This document shows positions 3,642-64,000 of a stretch of 64,000 nt of DNA, in pieces. A program made the position numbers and the translations under genes. Location of the stretch: contig NZ_LT900217.1 in NCBI RefSeq assembly GCF_900199375.1, positions 2,480,001 through 2,544,000 on the forward strand. Reading direction: 5' to 3'. This DNA comes from Gordonibacter urolithinfaciens. GTDB taxonomy: Bacteria; Actinomycetota; Coriobacteriia; Coriobacteriales; Eggerthellaceae. The notes beneath the pieces were generated by a model that saw only the letters and a list, made by a program, of their open reading frames with translations, did not search any database and had not been told where the DNA came from. How positions within the stretch are numbered: position 1 is the first letter of the stretch; every line of letters starts with the position of its first letter.

Positions 3642-3650
3642 GGGGGGGGG
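3642..3650 (+). repeat. Poly-G tract (G9)
   Basis: Nine consecutive G residues start directly after the TGA stop of the YhgE/Pip gene. The tract lies outside coding sequence, so slippage would change only the 3' untranslated region. It is noted because two other long G/C homopolymers occur in this window. Confidence 0.9.
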
Positions 3651-14396: not shown

Positions 14397-14408
14397 GGGG
14401 GGGGGGGG
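14397..14408 (+). repeat. Poly-G tract (G12) in the spacer before the first permease
   Basis: Twelve consecutive G residues lie between hairpin copy B and the permease start. Tracts this long are prone to slipped-strand length changes. Because this one is non-coding, changes could alter only spacing, RNA structure or read-through. Confidence 0.85.
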
Positions 14409-54568: not shown

Positions 54569-55999
54569 CTAGCGAGCGCCGCTCGGGCGCAGCAGCACGC
54601 GAACCGTCGCCGCGTGCTCGTCGGCTTCAACCTGCACCTCGCCTCGGTAGCGCTTCGCCAGGGTCGCTACCGAGGTCAGCCCGATGCCGTCGCCTTTCCG
54701 CTTGGCCGAGCGTGCGCCGCTCGACAGCACGCCTTCCGGCGCCGCGGCGGCCAGCGCGCGGGCATCGGCGGACGTGCAGCTGTTGCGCACGGAAACCAGC
54801 ACGGCGTTGCCCTCGATCCGCGCTTCGGCGTCCACAAAGAGCGGGCGCGCCCCGTCCGGCGCCGCCGATCGGCCGTCTGTCCCCGCCTGCGCGCTCCCCG
54901 CAACCTGTGCATCCTCAGCCGTCGCACGCTCACAGGCTTCCACGGCGTTCTCCAGCAGGTTCGCCATCGCCATGCAGAAATCTGCTTCGGGCAGCGGCAG
55001 GCGTTCGGGCAGTGCGAAGGCAAGCGAGACATCGGCACCGAAGGCTCGCGCCCGCTCGGCGAAATGCGCGGCCACGGAGTCCAAAGCGAAGTTGAGCGCG
55101 TAAGCGCCCGGCTCGTGTTGCGCCTGGCCGGCTCCGTGTTCGTCGAGGTACGCGCGCAGGCCCCGTACGTCGTCCTCGTCGACAAACGATCGAATGACCA
55201 GCATCTGGTGGCGAAAGTCGTGGCGCGCCTTGGCGGTGTCGCGCAGGGTGCGGCGCAGGTTCTCGTAGCGCTCATGCTGCAGCTCTTCCAACTGAGCCGT
55301 CTCGCGCAGGCGCGCGTTCTCCATGACGGTGCGCAGGGCCGAGAACAGCATGATGTACGACGCTACCATCAGGAACGCCAGGACGCTCACCGCCAGCGCG
55401 TACAGCACATCCGAGCCGAACGATAGGAATTCCACCGCGTATGCGAACAGGTACAGTGCGTTCGCTGCGACGAAGAACCCTGCGGGCACGGCGGCCAGGC
55501 GTCGCCAGAGCGCGGGGTCGTCCACCTGATCGACGCCCCAGCGGATGGTTCGCGCGAACAACGGCGTCAGCACGAGCGGGCCCGCGGAGCACACGACGGC
55601 ATCCAGCACGCGCCGCGCCCCGAAGTTCCATTCCAGCGCTACCGTGCGCAGCAGTACGTCGTAGGCGAGGATGGCGATGGCGGCGGCGGTCGCGGCGCTG
55701 AAGAAAACGAACAGGCGCTTGCCCCACGGCAGCTTCGTCAGCGCGGCCAGCGACAGCAGCGACACGGCCAGCACGGGAACCGTCGCCCAGACCCCTTCCT
55801 CGCCGGCGAAGGCTGCTACGCCGATGCCGCAGGCCAGGCTGACGGCGGCGACGATGCCCAGCGCGATGCCTACGGTGGCCTTGAGAGAAAAGCGCAGCCG
55901 GCCGCGCACGGACAGCAGCATGAGGAAGAACATCGCCAGGAACGTGGGCGCGTTGCGCACGACGTACCACAGAACCCCTCCGGCGACGTCCTCTCCCAT
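54569..55999 (-). CDS. GHKL sensor histidine kinase of a LytTR two-component system
   Basis: A 476-residue membrane kinase. Six or seven hydrophobic segments occupy residues 10-225 with no large external domain, as in AgrC-like and related peptide-sensing kinases. A coiled linker (TAQLEELQHERYENLRRTLR) leads to the phosphoacceptor region AKARHDFRHQMLVIRSF (His260). The ATPase part has an N-box MANLLENAVEACERA, a G-type box GDGIGLTSVATLAKRYRG and a long acidic insert (AQVAGSAQAGTDGRSAAPDG) between strands. GGAGGTAGG precedes the ATG. It lies six bases downstream of its response-regulator gene. The signal is unknown, and no peptide pheromone gene is seen nearby. Confidence 0.9.
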   Translation of the reverse strand: MGEDVAGGVLWYVVRNAPTFLAMFFLMLLSVRGRLRFSLKATVGIALGIVAAVSLACGIGVAAFAGEEGVWATVPVLAVSLLSLAALTKLPWGKRLFVFFSAATAAAIAILAYDVLLRTVALEWNFGARRVLDAVVCSAGPLVLTPLFARTIRWGVDQVDDPALWRRLAAVPAGFFVAANALYLFAYAVEFLSFGSDVLYALAVSVLAFLMVASYIMLFSALRTVMENARLRETAQLEELQHERYENLRRTLRDTAKARHDFRHQMLVIRSFVDEDDVRGLRAYLDEHGAGQAQHEPGAYALNFALDSVAAHFAERARAFGADVSLAFALPERLPLPEADFCMAMANLLENAVEACERATAEDAQVAGSAQAGTDGRSAAPDGARPLFVDAEARIEGNAVLVSVRNSCTSADARALAAAAPEGVLSSGARSAKRKGDGIGLTSVATLAKRYRGEVQVEADEHAATVRVLLRPSGAR

Positions 56000-56005
56000 G
56001 GAAGC

Positions 56006-56725
56006 CTACCTCCGTACGTGGGCGAACAGGTAATCGAAATAGCGGCTGCGCGCCTCGGCGCGCGACGAGCGGCGCACGGGCAGCTTCGAGCCGTCGTTCA
56101 TGAGAAAGCAGCCGTCGTCGGTGAGGTCGTCCACATGGGCGAGGTTCACCATGATGCCGCGGTTGCAGGCGAACAGCTGCGGATACGGCGCCACCATGTC
56201 CGCGAGCCGGCCGAACGACTGACGCCAGCGCAGCGGCCCGTTCGCGGTGTTGAGGTTCAAGTAGTGCCCGTCGGCGGTGATGGAGCGCACCTGCGACAGC
56301 GGCACATTGATCACGGCCGATCCGTCGTGGATGCGCAGCATGGTCTCGTCTCCGGCGAGGCGCTCGATGGCCTCGTCCAGAGCGGCGGCGATGTCGTCGG
56401 GCGTGAACGGTTTGGTCAGGTAGTGGAACGCGCGCACACGGAACCCGTCCACGGCGTGTTCGCTGGACACGGTGGTGAAGATGATGAGGCCGGGGTAGTT
56501 CTCGCGCCGCAGCCGTTCGGCGATGTCGATGCCGTTGGCGCCGTCCAGGAACACATCCAGGAACACGAGGTCGAAGGCGAGCGCGTCGGCTGTCTCGAAC
56601 AGGTCGTCGCCGCCGCGGAAGCGGCATATCTCGCAGGTGCGTCCTCGCTTGTCCAGGTGGGAGCGGATCGCGTCTTCGAGGGTTTTGGCATCGGGTGCGC
56701 AGTCATCAACGATGGCGATTCTCAT
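56006..56725 (-). CDS. LytTR-family response regulator
   Basis: A 239-residue protein. The receiver domain starts MRIAIVDDCAPDAKTLEDAI and has the phosphoacceptor Asp57 in DLVFLDVFLDGANGIDIAER, the switch Thr in IIFTTVSSEHAVDGF and the conserved Lys in YLTKPFTPDD. The C-terminal LytTR DNA-binding domain follows (MLRIHDGSAVINVPLSQVRS, ITADGHYLNLNTANG, FACNRGIMVNLAHVDDL, GSKLPVRRSSRAEARSRYFD). The start at 56725 is the family start; the longer in-frame reading has no homologous residues. A pair of direct repeats that could be its own binding site lies 123-153 bases upstream, and the same pair precedes the surface-protein gene at 58786. Confidence 0.92.
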   Translation of the reverse strand: MRIAIVDDCAPDAKTLEDAIRSHLDKRGRTCEICRFRGGDDLFETADALAFDLVFLDVFLDGANGIDIAERLRRENYPGLIIFTTVSSEHAVDGFRVRAFHYLTKPFTPDDIAAALDEAIERLAGDETMLRIHDGSAVINVPLSQVRSITADGHYLNLNTANGPLRWRQSFGRLADMVAPYPQLFACNRGIMVNLAHVDDLTDDGCFLMNDGSKLPVRRSSRAEARSRYFDYLFAHVRR

Positions 56726-56847
56726 CGGTCTCTTTCTTCGATACATGCCGGCAGGGAGGGGTTCGCCTGAACGGCGCATATCGGTTATGCGACGCGTCAT
56801 GGAACCTCCATTCCATTTTGGCGGTATCGTCGAAAAGCGACGGATGT

Positions 56848-56878
56848 TTTCGTGCCAGATCGGCGCGTTTCGTGCCAG
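56848..56878 (+). promoter_or_regulatory. Paired direct repeat, candidate LytTR operator 1
   Basis: TTTCGTGCCAG at 56848-56858 and again at 56868-56878, start-to-start 20 bp. LytTR regulators bind pairs of direct repeats about two helical turns apart. The site is upstream of the regulator gene but oriented toward the plus strand. A perfect TATAAT (plus, 56931-56936), overlapped by TATACT on the minus strand (56934-56929), lies 53 bases beyond it. Confidence 0.65.
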
Positions 56879-56975
56879 GCTGTGCAGGGACGAAAATCGC
56901 CCACGTGCGGGCGGATCGTCTTGCGAACAGTATAATGCAACGCGCTGCCCCGGAAGACTAAGAGCCAGCCCAACA

Positions 56976-57015
56976 CTCTTTACAGCTCTTTACAGCTCTT
57001 TACAGCTCTTTACAG
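56976..57015. repeat. Four perfect tandem copies of a 10-bp unit
   Basis: CTCTTTACAG is repeated exactly four times from 56976 to 57015. The last copies contain the stop codon of the minus-strand AlbA_2-type gene. Such arrays can change copy number by slippage. Confidence 0.92.
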
Positions 57016-58443
57016 CTTGGCAGGAGGACCGTAGTATTGAAAAGGATCGGTTTTGTTTTTGCCATGCCAGACGAGCAGTCCTTCGTCAACCAAGTTCTTC
57101 AACACGCGAGATGCCGTTGGCTTGGACACTCCCGCCTTTTCAACGAGGCTTGCCGAGGTCACCCGACCCTCCTCCGCAGCGAGCCGAAGAGCGAGCCTCT
57201 CGTTGTCGTTCAGCTTTGCAAACGTTTCGAGGGGCACAGCTTGTCCCTTGCCATGGGACAAAACATCTTCATCCATAGCCCCTTCTTGTGCTCGCCTGAA
57301 AATGTTCACTCGAAACATATTGCCGATTTCGCGGAACTCGGGTTCCGGGAGGCCGGCTTCCTCGCAGGCGTCTTTGATTCGCCTGAGTCCGGTCCCCCAG
57401 CTTTCAAATAGATCCATCTGCATGAAGACTTCAGCGATCAAGGGATTCCTTAGCGCAGTGGCACCTTCGAGTGCCTGCTCTATGGTTATGCCGCCAAAAA
57501 GTGCGCCGGGAGAAGTCACCTCAAGTCGGTCGTCGAACAACGCCACCTGTACGCACGAATTCGATTGTAGGTTTCGATGCACCACGGCGTTGACGATGGC
57601 CTCTCGAATGGCCTCCAGCGGTAACTCGTATTCGTCTTTTCGATAGAGACCTTTGATCTCGGCACCGAGCCGTATATTGCGCAGCACAAACTGAACCGCC
57701 TCGTCGACTTGTTCATAGAGCGGTCCGCCGTACTCGCGACGATCAAGAAAAACCACGCGGTCGGTGCCCTTGAACTGAGCGCACTGTATCCGGGCAAAGC
57801 GATATGAATTGCGGGTGAGTAGAATCAAGGCCCGTGCGGGAGCCCTCTTGCCGTCGATCAATTTGACAAGCCCCCAATTCTCAAGATTGCGAATAGTCGC
57901 TTCGCGTCTGCCGTCATCCGTGCGACGCCGGTTTATCTCGTCGCAAAGAAGCTGTGCTTCCTTTTCGAGGAACGGCTCCTCTGGACAAACCTGCTCATCA
58001 TATGATTGAGACGACCCTCGAAGCAAGAGCTCTTTGAGAGCCGTCTCGTCTGCCATGCGGGTCGTTGCTCCGACGCGCACATAAGTCCCTTTACCAACGT
58101 CTTTGCCCTTGAAGTGATACGGCACTGATGGGCCCGGCTGGACCTCTGCTATTACAATCTCACGATCTTCGAATTGAGCAACTCGAATACGGGGAGCCAG
58201 AAGAGGCTCGCATAAATCGGAGAGCGCATTTGCGATTGTATCTGCAACCTGCGAAGCGTTGGCTATGCCAACGATCTTCCTGTCTTCATTGCGTACGCCG
58301 ACGATGAGCTTGCCGCCAGCAGAATTAGCAAATGCGATGAGGGTCTTGACGTATTTCTCGCTCTTTGGAGGAAGGGTTTCCTTTAGTTCGAGGGTTTTCG
58401 TTTCCCCGTCGTCTATTTCCCGCAACAAGCTCTTATCGTCCAT
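57010..58443 (-). CDS. AlbA_2 / ATPase-like domain protein with C-terminal winged helix (putative transcriptional regulator)
   Basis: A 477-residue protein of the family often called ATP-dependent DNA helicase-related or Schlafen-like AlbA_2 regulators. N-terminal AlbA_2 domain: ETKTLELKETLPPKSEKYVK then TLIAFANSAGGKLIVGVRNE. The middle has a GHKL-like part with EAIREAIVNAVVHRNLQSNS and MDLFESWGTGLRRIKDACEE. The end is a winged helix (ASLVEKAGVSKPTASRVLKN). Despite family names, no helicase motif is visible. Base composition is clearly lower in GC than its neighbours, suggesting recent acquisition. The C-terminus and stop lie in a 10-bp tandem array. It sits between the LytTR system and its presumed target gene. 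Confidence 0.85.
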   Translation of the reverse strand: MDDKSLLREIDDGETKTLELKETLPPKSEKYVKTLIAFANSAGGKLIVGVRNEDRKIVGIANASQVADTIANALSDLCEPLLAPRIRVAQFEDREIVIAEVQPGPSVPYHFKGKDVGKGTYVRVGATTRMADETALKELLLRGSSQSYDEQVCPEEPFLEKEAQLLCDEINRRRTDDGRREATIRNLENWGLVKLIDGKRAPARALILLTRNSYRFARIQCAQFKGTDRVVFLDRREYGGPLYEQVDEAVQFVLRNIRLGAEIKGLYRKDEYELPLEAIREAIVNAVVHRNLQSNSCVQVALFDDRLEVTSPGALFGGITIEQALEGATALRNPLIAEVFMQMDLFESWGTGLRRIKDACEEAGLPEPEFREIGNMFRVNIFRRAQEGAMDEDVLSHGKGQAVPLETFAKLNDNERLALRLAAEEGRVTSASLVEKAGVSKPTASRVLKNLVDEGLLVWHGKNKTDPFQYYGPPAKL

Positions 58444-58682
58444 GACGGCTCTTTTCGTATCTCGTCATAATCCTATCGACATTCTAGCAGGAACAAAGTC
58501 CGCTGCCGCATCATGCGGTGAGAGCTGAGGCATTGAAGATGAAAATCGCTTGTCCAATAGAGAGACACGGTTTTTCAGATGTGCAGGCAGACCGAGGCAA
58601 GCGTGCGACGCGCCTGCGAACGAGTGCCCCTTTCGTCATCTCCCCCGACCTCCTCCCGCCGCTCGGGGGTTGCGGGGGTGCG

Positions 58683-58713
58683 TTTCGTGCCAGGGAGGTT
58701 CGTTTCGTGCCAG
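58683..58713 (+). promoter_or_regulatory. Paired direct repeat, candidate LytTR operator 2
   Basis: TTTCGTGCCAG at 58683-58693 and 58703-58713, again 20 bp start-to-start, with CG before each copy (CGTTTCGTGCCAG). It ends six bases before the presumed -35 region of the surface-protein gene, a typical activator position. Confidence 0.7.
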
Positions 58714-58718
58714 AAAAC

Positions 58719-58757
58719 GGTTTTCGATCTTGCGCCTCGGTAAACTTCACTTGAAGT
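58719..58757 (+). promoter_or_regulatory. Promoter candidate of the surface-protein gene
   Basis: GGTTTT (58719-58724), a 16-base spacer and TAAACT (58741-58746). The weak -35 fits activator dependence. ACTTCA/TGAAGT (58744-58749 and 58752-58757) forms a small palindrome at the start-site position. Confidence 0.5.
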
Positions 58758-58785: not shown

Positions 58786-60117
58786 ATGGGCCGGATACTG
58801 AGGCGTGAACATGAAAGCGAGCGGTCGGCGTTCGCCGCGCTGCTCACGACGGGCATGCTCGTCGCGATCCTCGTGCTCGCTGGCCTCGCGGCTCCCTCGC
58901 CCGCCTACGCGGGCGAGCTGCAAGGCACGGGCACGGCCGAAGACCCCATGCTCATCTACAACACCGGCGACCTCATCGCGTGGTGCAACAAGCTGAACGA
59001 GATGGGCCAGGACCAAGAGCGCCAGCAGCACGCGCGCCTCATGAACGACCTCACCGTCCCTGGTATCGACGGCACGGAATACGGCGGCGCCGTCACCAAC
59101 GATGTCATCGCCGCCATGAACCACCCCGACTTGCAAGTGACCGAGTTCGACGGCAACGGTCATTTGATCGAGCTCCAGCTTACCGGCAGCAGCGCCCTCT
59201 TCCAAACCGGCGGCAAGCCTGACGACACGGGCGTTACAACGATCAAGGACCTCCACGTCATCGGCTCGGTGAGTCACGGCAGCAGCGCGGGCACGCTGTT
59301 CGGGAGCATCGGCGAGGAGGGCAACCCTTCCGAAAACCGCCGGATCGAGATAACGGATTGCACGAACCAGGCGAACGTGGAGGGCGGCCCGAGCGCCGGC
59401 GGCTTCATAGGCTCGTATTACGACAATGAGTCTGGCGAAGGCAGTATCGACATCGAGCGCTGCTCGAACTTCGGCGATATCCTGTCCTCGCAGGGGCACG
59501 CCGGCGGCCTGGTGGGCAGCCTTGTGGAGTACAGCAGTGAATTTCTGGCCTCTTCTCACAGAAGTAGTTTGGAGTACTGCTCGAACAACGGCGCGATCAA
59601 GTCGATGGGCGGCAGCTTCTCCACGTTCTATGACGTTTATGAAAAAGACAAGCCAGAAACAATCGGGGGATGCGCCGGAGGCCTAGTGGGGTATTCGTCG
59701 TATAAATCTACCCATTTTGTCATTGGTCACGACTACAACCAAGGGGAAATCTATAGCGCGAGCGGCATCGGATACTCCGGCGGTTTGGTGGGATTCTCCG
59801 ATACCACTACCTATGATCAGCATACTATTTCGTATTGCTACAACTCAGGTACTATCAAGACCAACGCCGCAGAAGCCGGGCATGCCGGCGGCCTCTTCGG
59901 GTTCACGTTGTACCATGTAAATAATCCTAACGGCTGCCAGACCTTAGAAGGCAGCGTGCCGGCGGACGCCGTCAGCGGCACGAACAACGGCAGCATTGTC
60001 AGCAAGATTAATATGGCCTATGGCCACGGGTATACCAGTAAACAGGTACTTGAGGGCGTCGGTGTCGGCAAGAGCATCAAAGTGACGGTGATAACCCCCC
60101 CTATCCAACAAGTATGA
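58786..60117 (+). CDS. Giant GLUG/InlB/Fn3 surface protein, N-terminal part (frame ends after a C7 tract)
   Basis: 443 residues. A signal peptide (LLTTGMLVAILVLAGLAAPS then PAYAG, cleavage near residue 43) is followed by ELQGTGTAEDPMLIYNTGDL, the usual opening of GLUG-type adhesin domains. Repeats of the GLUG pattern follow: SAGGFIGSYYDNESGEGSID, HAGGLVGSLVEY, CAGGLVGYSSYKS, YSGGLVGFSDT and HAGGLFGFTLY. The ATG at 58786 has CGGAGT six bases upstream. The reading frame ends at TGA 60115-60117, 14 bases after seven C residues, in the tail VITPPIQQV that looks unrelated to what precedes. The protein continues naturally in the +1 frame. As written, the product would be a secreted fragment without an anchor. 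Confidence 0.82.
   Translation: MGRILRREHESERSAFAALLTTGMLVAILVLAGLAAPSPAYAGELQGTGTAEDPMLIYNTGDLIAWCNKLNEMGQDQERQQHARLMNDLTVPGIDGTEYGGAVTNDVIAAMNHPDLQVTEFDGNGHLIELQLTGSSALFQTGGKPDDTGVTTIKDLHVIGSVSHGSSAGTLFGSIGEEGNPSENRRIEITDCTNQANVEGGPSAGGFIGSYYDNESGEGSIDIERCSNFGDILSSQGHAGGLVGSLVEYSSEFLASSHRSSLEYCSNNGAIKSMGGSFSTFYDVYEKDKPETIGGCAGGLVGYSSYKSTHFVIGHDYNQGEIYSASGIGYSGGLVGFSDTTTYDQHTISYCYNSGTIKTNAAEAGHAGGLFGFTLYHVNNPNGCQTLEGSVPADAVSGTNNGSIVSKINMAYGHGYTSKQVLEGVGVGKSIKVTVITPPIQQV
60095..60101 (+). repeat. Poly-C tract (C7) at the frameshift
   Basis: Seven C residues lie in the coding region. With six (or nine) C residues the upstream and downstream frames would join as ITPLSNKYDYEQVGWSKT, continuing the same large protein. 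With seven, translation stops at 60115-60117. Confidence 0.85.
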
Positions 60118-63100
60118 CTACGAGCAAGTCGGTTGGAGCAAGACTTTCCACGGTGGAGACAGTTATCCGCCGGAGGGCTACCGTGTGCTCTATTGGACGC
60201 GCGAAGCGCTCGACGCGAACGGCACGTGGAGCGAGCCGCCCAAGGAATACAAGGCCGACTCCGACGATATACACGATCGTGTCTACGGCGGCGAGCCCGT
60301 TTTCTACGCCTACTGCGTGCCCTCTTCGGCTACCGTGAAGTTCGACCTGAACGAACCCACCGGCGGTTATACCTGCTCATTGGATCCGAAAGACGCGACC
60401 AAGACCTTCATGAAAGGCGAGCCGGTAGGTGCGCTGCCCACGGCTACCTGCGTCAACCCTAACGACAAAAAAGATACCCGGGCGTTTTTGGGCTGGGCGA
60501 CCAAGAAAGATGGAAACGACCCGAAAGCGGAATGGATAAGCGAAAACTCCGACAACCTGTACGATTTCCGAGACGATTCCCATACCATCACACTGTATGC
60601 GCAGTGGGCCGATACGAGCGTGCCGTTCGAGATTCTCCGCCAACCCGAAGACTGCTTGGTTTCCGCCGTTGCCGAAGGCGTAAATCATGAGGTTTGGTTC
60701 GATTTCTACACCACGTACGACTACTATTCTGCGACGCTGCAGTTCAAGAAGGAGGGGAGCAGTAGCTATAAAGACCTCGACGTCCCCCACGCCGCCATGG
60801 CAGACCAGTTCCATTTCTACCTTGAGTCCTCAACGGAAGCCATGGGGGACTACCGCATCAAGATAGAGTACTACGATTTCCTCGAACCGTTAGGCACGCT
60901 CTACACCAGTTCTGCGAACATCGTGCTGGACATTCCGCAGTCGGAAGCGAAAGTCAGCAGCATCACCTTGGAGGAGGATAGTGAAATCGACGAGGTTTTG
61001 GGAACGCACTCCTACAACGTGAACGGGAGCATACTGGGCGACCTCCCATCGCTCATAGACGAGTCCGTTCCGGGGAACTTCGCCCATATGGCGTGGATTG
61101 AGGGCGGTCTTGGCGGCATCTTGCCGGCTACCACCAACACGGCAAAACTGTACGTTGACGACGTGCGCGGCTTCACGTTGGCGGACCAGAATTTGAGGGA
61201 GGGGCAAACCTACACGCTATGCGTGTCTCGCGTGATGGACAACTATTATCTACTCGGACGCTACACGGGCGAAAGCGAGCCGTACCGTGTGCCGTTCGTG
61301 GTGCCCTACGCAGACAGCGTGGCGGCCAGCATCACGGCGGTGCAGGTGACGGAAGAACCCGTGGTGCAAAATGGCAAGGCACTCGACTTTGATACCGACT
61401 ATAACGTGTTAGTCAACGGAACGTTCAACCTAGCCTCGGATGTGCAGTACACGCAGGCGCAGACCGACGGCCGCGAGGTGTCTGCCCAGTGGCAGTATTG
61501 CATAGGCTCTAGCGGTTGGACCGACGTGCCCGACGAGCTGTTCGCTCAAGACGAGAAGGGCAAGCCGGTTCGCGGCATTGCGTGGAGCGATGACCGCAAG
61601 AGCGCGCGTTTGTATGCCACGCTGAACGCCCAGGCGAAGCTTGATGAGGCGTACTTCCGGGTGAAGCTGTCCACGCCGCCGGCGTCCGTCGACACGGCAA
61701 GCGCTCAGTCGAAGAAAGCCCTGAACCTGTCTGTTCCCCAGCCGAAGATAACGGACTTGAAGGTGACGAACGACACACATGTGAGCGTTACGTGGGAGTG
61801 GGAAGATGCCGCGGGGAACAAGTTGCCGAGCGATGGCTACTACGTGAGCATCGAACGCGACGACTCGTCAAGCTCGGGGGAAGAAAATTGGGTGGAGGTG
61901 AACCGCGGTCGGGTGTATACGTACACCTACGATGCAACCCTCGATCCTCAGCAAAAATATCGCGTGTCTGTGCGAGCCGACACGGAAGGTCTTCAAAGCT
62001 CATCAGTGCAAAAGGAGTTTTCCACGTCCGGCACGACGGTGCTTGCGTGGGACGATACCTACTGCACGGCCTACCTCCCCTCGGAAAATAAGAACGACAA
62101 AATTTCCGTGGATTACGATTGGGCGAGCTACAAAGACGGCAAACACGTCGCCCTGTACACGTGGCATCTCAGTACGGAGAAGTACGCCGAAACAGCGTAC
62201 CAGAAGTTCTTCACCACGGAATCTGACACCGCGAGCTTCCCGGAGGACTTCCGGAAAGCCTATGACGAGAGCGCCCATCCGGAGACACTGTGCGATCCGA
62301 TGGACGCGTGGTGGGTGTGGTTGGAGGCCGAGGTGTACAACCTTGACGAGAAGGGCAACCCGACGTATGGCATCACTGAAACCATCGCGCGTACATCGGC
62401 CCTTCCCGTGGTGCACCGCACCTCCGAGACGCTGAGCCCGAGCACGAAGGATGTCGGGTCGCACAGCATGACGATATGCTGGGATGCGCCTGCGGAGGGC
62501 CTGGTGCGCGAATACGAGGTTGAAGTGGACGACCGCATCTGGATCGTCCCGTCGGAGCAGGCAAAGGATGGCCATTTCGAGCTGAAGGTCGACGGCCTAC
62601 CCAGCGATACCTGGTGTGATGCGGGTATCGGCACCACCGATTCGCGCATACCGACCTACACGGGCTCTTATACGTGGATCAAGAATGACACGACGCTGCC
62701 CAGCCCCGAGGTGGGCACCTGGACGGCCACGGCCAACCCGAGCGACGCCAAGCAGGGCGACGAGATCACGCTTTCGGCCTCCTATGCGGCGAACAGCGGG
62801 AAGTTCCCGAAGGCTGCCGAGCTGCAATGGTACTCTTGGCGCGAGGGCGACAAGGATTGGCGGCCTGAGGGCGACCCGGTTACGCTTGGCGATGCCAGTC
62901 AGGATTACACGACGACCCTGAAGCACACGGTGGCCTCCGAAGATTACGGGCGGCAGTGGAAGCTGGGCGTGAAGGCGACCTCGCCCGACGAGTCGGTCAC
63001 GGACAGCTCGAACGTCGTGACGGTGGCCATCACGCCGCCCACGCCGACGGACGTCGCGTTCGGCACGTCGACGCCCACGAGCCTCCCGGTTTCGTGGACG

Positions 63101-64000
63101 CCGGTTGAGGCTGCGGAGGGGTACCAGATCAAGTGCGCGAAGCTGGATGCCGACGGCAATCCGGTGAGCGCGACCACGTATTCGGTGGCTGCGAGCAGCT
63201 TGACGCCGGACGCCGACGGCAAGCTGTGCTATGAGGTGCTGGGCCTTGAGCCGAGCACGCCCTACCAGGTGAGCGTTGCCGCGTTCACGCACGGCGTGAC
63301 CAGCGACTTCTCGACCGCGCTCGACGCGATGACGTTGGCAGAGCCCACCATCGAGACGCCCGCATTCTCGCAGGTGCCCAAGACGACCTGGGTGGAAGCT
63401 GGCGAGGCTGCGACGTTCACGGCGCAGGCCAGCGTGAGCGACGGCGGCACGATTGCGTACGCCTGGCAGCGCAAGGGCGCAGGCGAGCAGGACTTCGCCC
63501 CCCTTGCGGCGGGCGACAAGTACGTCATGAGCGAGAAAGACGGCGTGGCGACGCTCACGGTGAAGAACGTGGGCGCGGGCGACGTGGGTGCGGCGTTCCG
63601 CTGCGTGGCGACGAGCACCAAAGAGAACCAGACGGCGAACGCCGCCAGCGCGGCGGCCTACCTGACCGTGACTCCCGTTGCGCCCACGAACGCGGAAGCG
63701 CGGGCAACCAGCGCGACCGCGGGCGAGGTTACCTGGACGGCGAACGGCATCGTGCGTCGCTTCGTGGTGACGTGGCAGCAAACCGATGGGAACGGTTCCA
63801 AGGGGTCCGAATACTCCAGGATCGTTACCATCTCCGACGTCGCAGCGCAAGGCAGCTGTCAACTCGACGGGCTGCTGCCCGGGGCAAGCTACGGGGTGAC
63901 GGTGTACGCCGCGCCGCAAGCCGGCTTCCGGTCGGAGGCGGCTAACGCATCGCTCGATACGCCGCTTGCAAGCACGCTCGAAACGGCCACGGTGAACCCG
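60095..64000 (+). CDS. Giant GLUG/InlB/Fn3 surface protein, continuing part in the +1 frame (open at window edge)
   Basis: 1,302 codons with no stop up to the end of the window, beginning just after an in-frame TAA at 60092-60094. The sequence is protein-like throughout: NKYDYEQVGWSKTFHGGDSY, an InlB/Flg_new repeat (SATVKFDLNEPTGGYTCSLD to SHTITLYAQWADTS, about 60315-60620), several beta-rich modules, a fibronectin III-like domain (PKITDLKVTNDTHVSVTWEW, about 61740-62035), another Fn3 (PTPTDVAFGTSTPTSLPVSW, about 63025-63340), an Ig-like domain (TWVEAGEAATFTAQASVSDG, about 63385-63670) and a further Fn3. It has no start codon or ribosome binding site of its own, so it needs the upstream part. 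Any C-terminal anchor lies outside the window. Confidence 0.8.

Follow-up and report, generated by a model that had tools for sequence, protein, structure and literature searches.

We analysed a stretch of 64,000 nucleotides of the Gordonibacter urolithinfaciens genome (the window) and found an 11-bp sequence, TTTCGTGCCAG, that forms perfect direct pairs in two places: upstream of the gene of a LytTR response regulator and upstream of the gene of a giant surface protein. This layout is very likely that of a LytTR operator common to the regulator and one surface gene. Our preferred reading, which we hold to be probable, is that the conserved core of the pair, TTTCGTGCC-N11-TTTCGTGCC, serves the adjacent regulator as its operator, that the bound regulator would activate the surface gene and, with less certainty, brake its own gene, and that the predicted regulon consists of these two sites.

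Repeat pairs in the genome

Both perfect 11-mer pairs lie on the positive strand, with 20 bp from start to start. The predicted surface-gene operator, TTTCGTGCCAG-N9-TTTCGTGCCAG, occupies positions 58683 to 58713 (+), and the predicted regulator-proximal operator, positions 56848 to 56878 (-), reads CTGGCACGAAA-N9-CTGGCACGAAA toward the regulator and is located 47 bp upstream of the regulator ATG. TTTCGTGCCAG alone among the 11-mers of the window formed direct pairs (spacing 15-30) at two distinct sites, and in 40 first-order Markov simulations of the window no 11-mer was paired in that way. A search of the whole genome, a single contig of 3,294,868 bases, for TTTCGTGCCAG-N9-TTTCGTGCCAG with up to 3 mismatches over the 22 bases returned just the two sites; the reversed-pattern control, run on the whole genome at the same threshold, returned none. 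A chance origin of the pairs was rejected on the grounds of this search, its control and the simulations. Single copies of the 11-mer with up to 1 mismatch were at chance level (37 matches vs 40 for the reversed control), therefore only the paired form carries the signal. A preliminary description of this DNA had placed the pair beside the regulator gene and beside the promoter of the surface gene, and in these two places only; both statements were borne out, and no wide occurrence unrelated to promoters was found in the genome.

With respect to the gene that it precedes, the pair has opposite orientations at the two sites: GGCACGAAA reads toward the regulator and TTTCGTGCC toward the surface gene. 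A shared RNA leader element was rejected for this reason. Between the two pairs, outside the conserved unit, there is a gene on the negative strand (57010 to 58443) whose product contains Schlafen/AlbA_2, HATPase_c_4 and winged-helix domains according to Pfam. Just past its stop codon, at 56976-57017, we noted an 11-bp unit, CTCTTTACAGC, in four near-perfect copies.

The regulator, its kinase and their relatives

The regulator gene (56006 to 56800, negative strand) has 264 codons from the ATG at 56800. This is the best placement of the start, as judged from the Shine-Dalgarno sequence GGAGG and the ATG, both kept in relatives; the conserved core of the protein begins at the ATG at 56725. The product is a LytTR response regulator, with a receiver domain (Response_reg, E 1.5e-15, 57.8 bits, cut-off 30.2) and a LytTR DNA-binding domain (E 4.8e-8, 33.6 bits, cut-off 22.6), and the genome holds five other LytTR matches. 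The most conserved LytTR motif is FhRhHRS at the DNA-contact loop (PMC4227749). At the right position, the window regulator has LFACNRG and the orthologs of two relatives (G063 and G065, see below) have FFTCHRG, two to four residues away from that motif. Comparison with solved LytTR structures gave just a weak match to 3d6w, of no use for mapping contacts.

A scan of 138 genomes of the family found an ortholog of the regulator (63-99% identity; next best relative 36%) in exactly seven: the genome studied here, Enteroscipio rubneri (G062, L003), Gordonibacter sp. 28C (G068, L004), Gordonibacter sp. Marseille-P2775 (G066, L005) and three further genomes, G063, G065 and G020. More distant relatives of the regulator were present in 132 of the 138. 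The pair, with up to 3 mismatches, occurred in 6 of the 7 ortholog-bearing genomes and, as weak matches, in 3 of the other 131 (Fisher p ~7e-8, calculated over genomes that are related and not independent). E. rubneri and the two other Gordonibacter species have both pairs, in the same orientation and period, within a divergent region of ~280-305 bp between regulator and surface gene, and their regulator-proximal repeats are identical to ours. G063 has one pair, shared by regulator and surface gene, between the two genes and a second one before a tandem second surface gene; in G020, the seventh genome, diverged pairs were found beside the regulator, where the pair is likewise shared, and before a further surface gene. 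In these five genomes the position and orientation of the surface-gene pair were kept (two pairs each in G063 and G020). The exception is G065, where a diverged pair precedes the regulator and neither a surface gene nor a kinase adjoins it; a perfect core pair lies on another contig (C45), before a gene of the sodium:neurotransmitter-symporter type (L131 6745-6775), and its geometry differs. This may represent a change of target.

Alignment of the surface-gene pairs in one orientation showed that the conserved core corresponds to two 9-bp repeats, TTTCGTGCC-N11-TTTCGTGCC. Between our genome and G066, each repeat is 9/9 identical, as compared with 5/11 in the 11-bp spacer and 37/100 (ungapped) in the 100 bp upstream. 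In published LytTR sites, 9-bp repeats are separated as a rule by 12 bp, and in some cases by 11 or 13 bp (PMC6193735). The repeats in our genome and in the relatives, with their 11-bp gap, match this description and agree with the earlier proposal of LytTR-type direct repeats about two turns apart. Core matches with 3 mismatches in the seven genomes were about as common as those of the reversed control, and a wider regulon was rejected.

Identity of the regulator is 99% with that of E. rubneri, which is assigned to another genus, and 83% with those of G066 and G068, of the same genus, and the genes flanking the locus differ; a horizontal transfer of the regulator locus is possible.

Downstream of the regulator gene lies the gene of a membrane sensor kinase of the GHKL type (54569 to 55999, negative strand; HATPase_c_5, PF14501, E 1.4e-10). 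Its ortholog adjoins the regulator in our genome, G062, G068 and G063 (4/7), and a close ortholog is absent from G065, G066 and G020 (3/7), though the regulator is kept there, so control by phosphorylation would not be a constant feature of the system. The proposed pairing of a membrane-sensing kinase with the regulator holds as to the type of the kinase, but not as a constant partnership. AgrB (PF04647) had no match in the genome, and an Agr-type peptide circuit was rejected on this basis.

Promoters and reading frames of the predicted target genes

The putative promoter of the surface gene has a -10 element, TAAACT, at 58741-58746 (+), whose first base lies exactly 29 nt past the second 9-bp repeat; a TTGACA-like -35 was not seen. 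The same offset was found at all eight surface-gene pairs, which represent three lineages, and it was kept although the intervening sequence has diverged between lineages. The -10 sequence is TAAACT in our genome, G062, G066, G068 and both G063 copies, and TAGAAT in both G020 copies. By comparison, none of 22 other pairs presented TAnAnT at 29 nt. These were 13 weak core matches in the seven genomes, the pair before the G065 symporter gene, and eight pairs from elsewhere in the order, one of them (G143) a perfect core pair; the last eight had no matching surface gene adjacent to them and were discarded as further sites. Only 27 of 20,000 shuffled sequences reached the three-lineage -10 score at any offset. 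With a 17-bp spacer, a distance of 29 nt to the -10 puts the end of the second repeat 6 bp before a -35, and published LytTR sites precede the -35 by a few bp (PMC6193735). The surface-gene operator would thus span about -70 to -42 relative to a transcription start near 58753. This location upstream of the -35, at a fixed distance, is the layout of published LytTR activator sites and for that reason we read the site as an activating one; activation of the surface gene by the regulator is likely, judging from the geometry.

The regulator-side pair does not fit this upstream-activator layout: it is not located a few bp upstream of a -35 in that orientation, and no -10 was found at 29 nt, either in our genome or in the relatives. 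A candidate -10 of the regulator promoter, TATACT (56929 to 56934, negative strand), lies instead upstream of the pair. In six of the seven genomes the sequence TA[TC]ACT, pointing to the regulator, lies upstream of the pair at a varying distance of 32-54 nt; it was not found in G020, and no conserved -35 was seen in the regulator upstream sequences. The pair would then sit in the leader of the regulator gene, which suggests a repressing roadblock, or brake, on the regulator. The position and conservation of the pair make it probable that the regulator controls itself, as had been proposed, but the absence of an activator-type -10 there sets this site apart from the surface-gene one. The proposed circuit of self-control plus one adhesin is maintained as to its targets, since the regulator and one surface gene were the only ones in the genome, and with lesser certainty as to the self-control.

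The giant surface protein gene starts at 58786 (+), a start codon conserved in G062, G066 and G068. Its first part, with a signal peptide (by eye) and a GLUG motif, ends its frame at 60117; the second part continues in another frame from 60095 to 64000 and past the end of the window, giving 3,377 codons in all (L167 2096-12229). The product, as read in L167, is a sortase-anchored surface protein with many fn3 repeats, a LAPTGD sortase motif (LAPTGDPLG...RLRRRR), a membrane anchor and an arginine tail; the same layout was found in G068, G063 and G020. The reading frame breaks at a C7 tract (60095 to 60101, +), which the preliminary description took for a second gate on expression of the gene. 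The window gene is indeed frameshifted there, but the orthologs in G062, G066 and G068 lack the tract and are open across the place, so C7 is not a conserved switch and its role is doubtful for the window gene; the frameshift may mean that the gene is in an off phase or damaged, or it may be a sequencing error. Other homopolymers were seen in the region: a C14 run followed directly by A8, intergenic and ~250 bp past the surface gene (L167 12483-12504), a G12 tract at 14397-14408 of the window, ~90 bp upstream of an ATG, and a G9 tract at 3642-3650, just after a stop codon, these last two being longer than other runs of the window.

The surface genes of two relatives carry tracts of another kind, compared here in one genome per species. 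Both operator-linked surface genes of G063 have C9 right after the start codon, and both are in frame (L133 5986-5994 and 8226-8234). The second surface gene of G020 has G10 right after its start codon (L132 12020-12029), in frame at the tract with the frame lost later, and the third, which has no clear operator, has G9 and is out of frame (L132 13450-13458); the G10 and G9 tracts are at homologous codons and differ in length. These genes of G063 and G020 are likely phase-variable, and it is plausible that regulation is combined with tract switching in both relatives.

Proposed mode of action and comparison with known systems

According to the preferred reading, two LytTR domains would occupy the pair of 9-bp repeats, which are about two helical turns apart. 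The surface-gene operator would directly precede a non-consensus -35, with a weak -10 at a constant distance, and the regulator bound there would recruit RNA polymerase for transcription of the sortase-anchored fibronectin-type protein. The second pair, between the candidate regulator promoter and the regulator gene, would provide self-control, most likely as a brake that blocks transcription, and the regulon of this genome would comprise the two sites. The repeat sequence is unlike the AgrA-type consensus, which counts against the operator reading. A broader proposal is tentative and, taken as a whole, rather doubtful: one operator pair activates the surface gene and brakes the regulator from its leader, the unit of operator, promoter and surface gene is duplicated in tandem, in some species each copy is set on or off at random by a homopolymer tract, and the kinase is dispensable.

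Other explanations were considered. The regulator could bind the pairs and repress the surface gene, for example when unphosphorylated, the gene being on without it. Activation does not follow from a weak -10 and a missing -35 alone, and regulators without a kinase persist in three genomes, as this explanation would allow; it is unlikely, however, because the site does not overlap the core promoter and stands at a constant distance upstream of the -35, where LytTR proteins are known to activate. Very unlikely is the use of the pairs by a different DNA-binding protein, such as another LytTR protein or an unlinked factor, with the regulator as a mere neighbour. The five further LytTR matches in the genome offer candidates for that role, but such relatives are nearly universal in the family whereas the pair tracks the regulator ortholog across the 138 genomes, and the AlbA_2 winged-helix gene is not at this position in the pair-bearing relatives. 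Since the pairs flank the AlbA_2 gene in the window, they might also be recombination footprints or target sites duplicated when it was inserted. This is exceedingly improbable: E. rubneri and the two other Gordonibacter species (G066 and G068) have both pairs with no such gene between them, which led us to reject a target-site duplication, and before tandem surface genes the pair recurs with its promoter geometry unchanged.

Bacteria of the Gordonibacter/Eggerthella type are gut inhabitants that modify drugs and plant compounds. In the literature searched, neither a LytTR regulon nor surface genes switched by homopolymers were described for Gordonibacter or Eggerthella relatives. The analysis gives the predicted operator as a specific sequence, with its promoter layout and a short list of targets, a rare case in which a whole predicted regulon, two sites in one genome, can be read from the sequence. 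In gut Actinobacteria a signal may turn on the giant surface proteins, with chance playing a part as well in some species.

Three groups of known systems resemble the one described here. The homopolymers right after the start codon in G063 (C9) and G020 (G10 and G9), and the frameshift of the window gene at C7, recall contingency loci, in which the length of a tract varies among clones of a strain and determines the reading frame. The window tract, however, is short, lies mid-gene and is not conserved in orthologs, and in the one genome per species compared an effect on the frame was seen but no variation in length. The LytTR Regulatory Systems HdrRM and BrsRM of Streptococcus mutans (PMC6193735) share the 9-bp repeats 11-13 bp apart, immediately upstream of the -35, and a site next to the regulator gene. 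In those systems the partner of the regulator is a membrane inhibitor instead of a kinase, whereas the regulator studied here has a receiver domain and, in four of the seven genomes, an adjacent GHKL sensor kinase, and its regulator-side site is without the upstream-activator geometry. AgrA of Staphylococcus aureus also combines a receiver with a LytTR domain, has a GHKL kinase partner and uses paired direct repeats that precede a promoter whose core is poor. The repeats from which it activates P2 and P3 directly precede these promoters, and at bsaA it acts as a repressor, from a site that closely follows the promoter (PMC4227749). This is the same double use of upstream and downstream sites by one regulator that we propose here. 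The differences are another repeat sequence, the lack of an AgrB homolog, a neighbouring surface protein as the target and the absence of the kinase from some relatives. The control scheme is a known one; what is new here is the recognition sequence and the targets.
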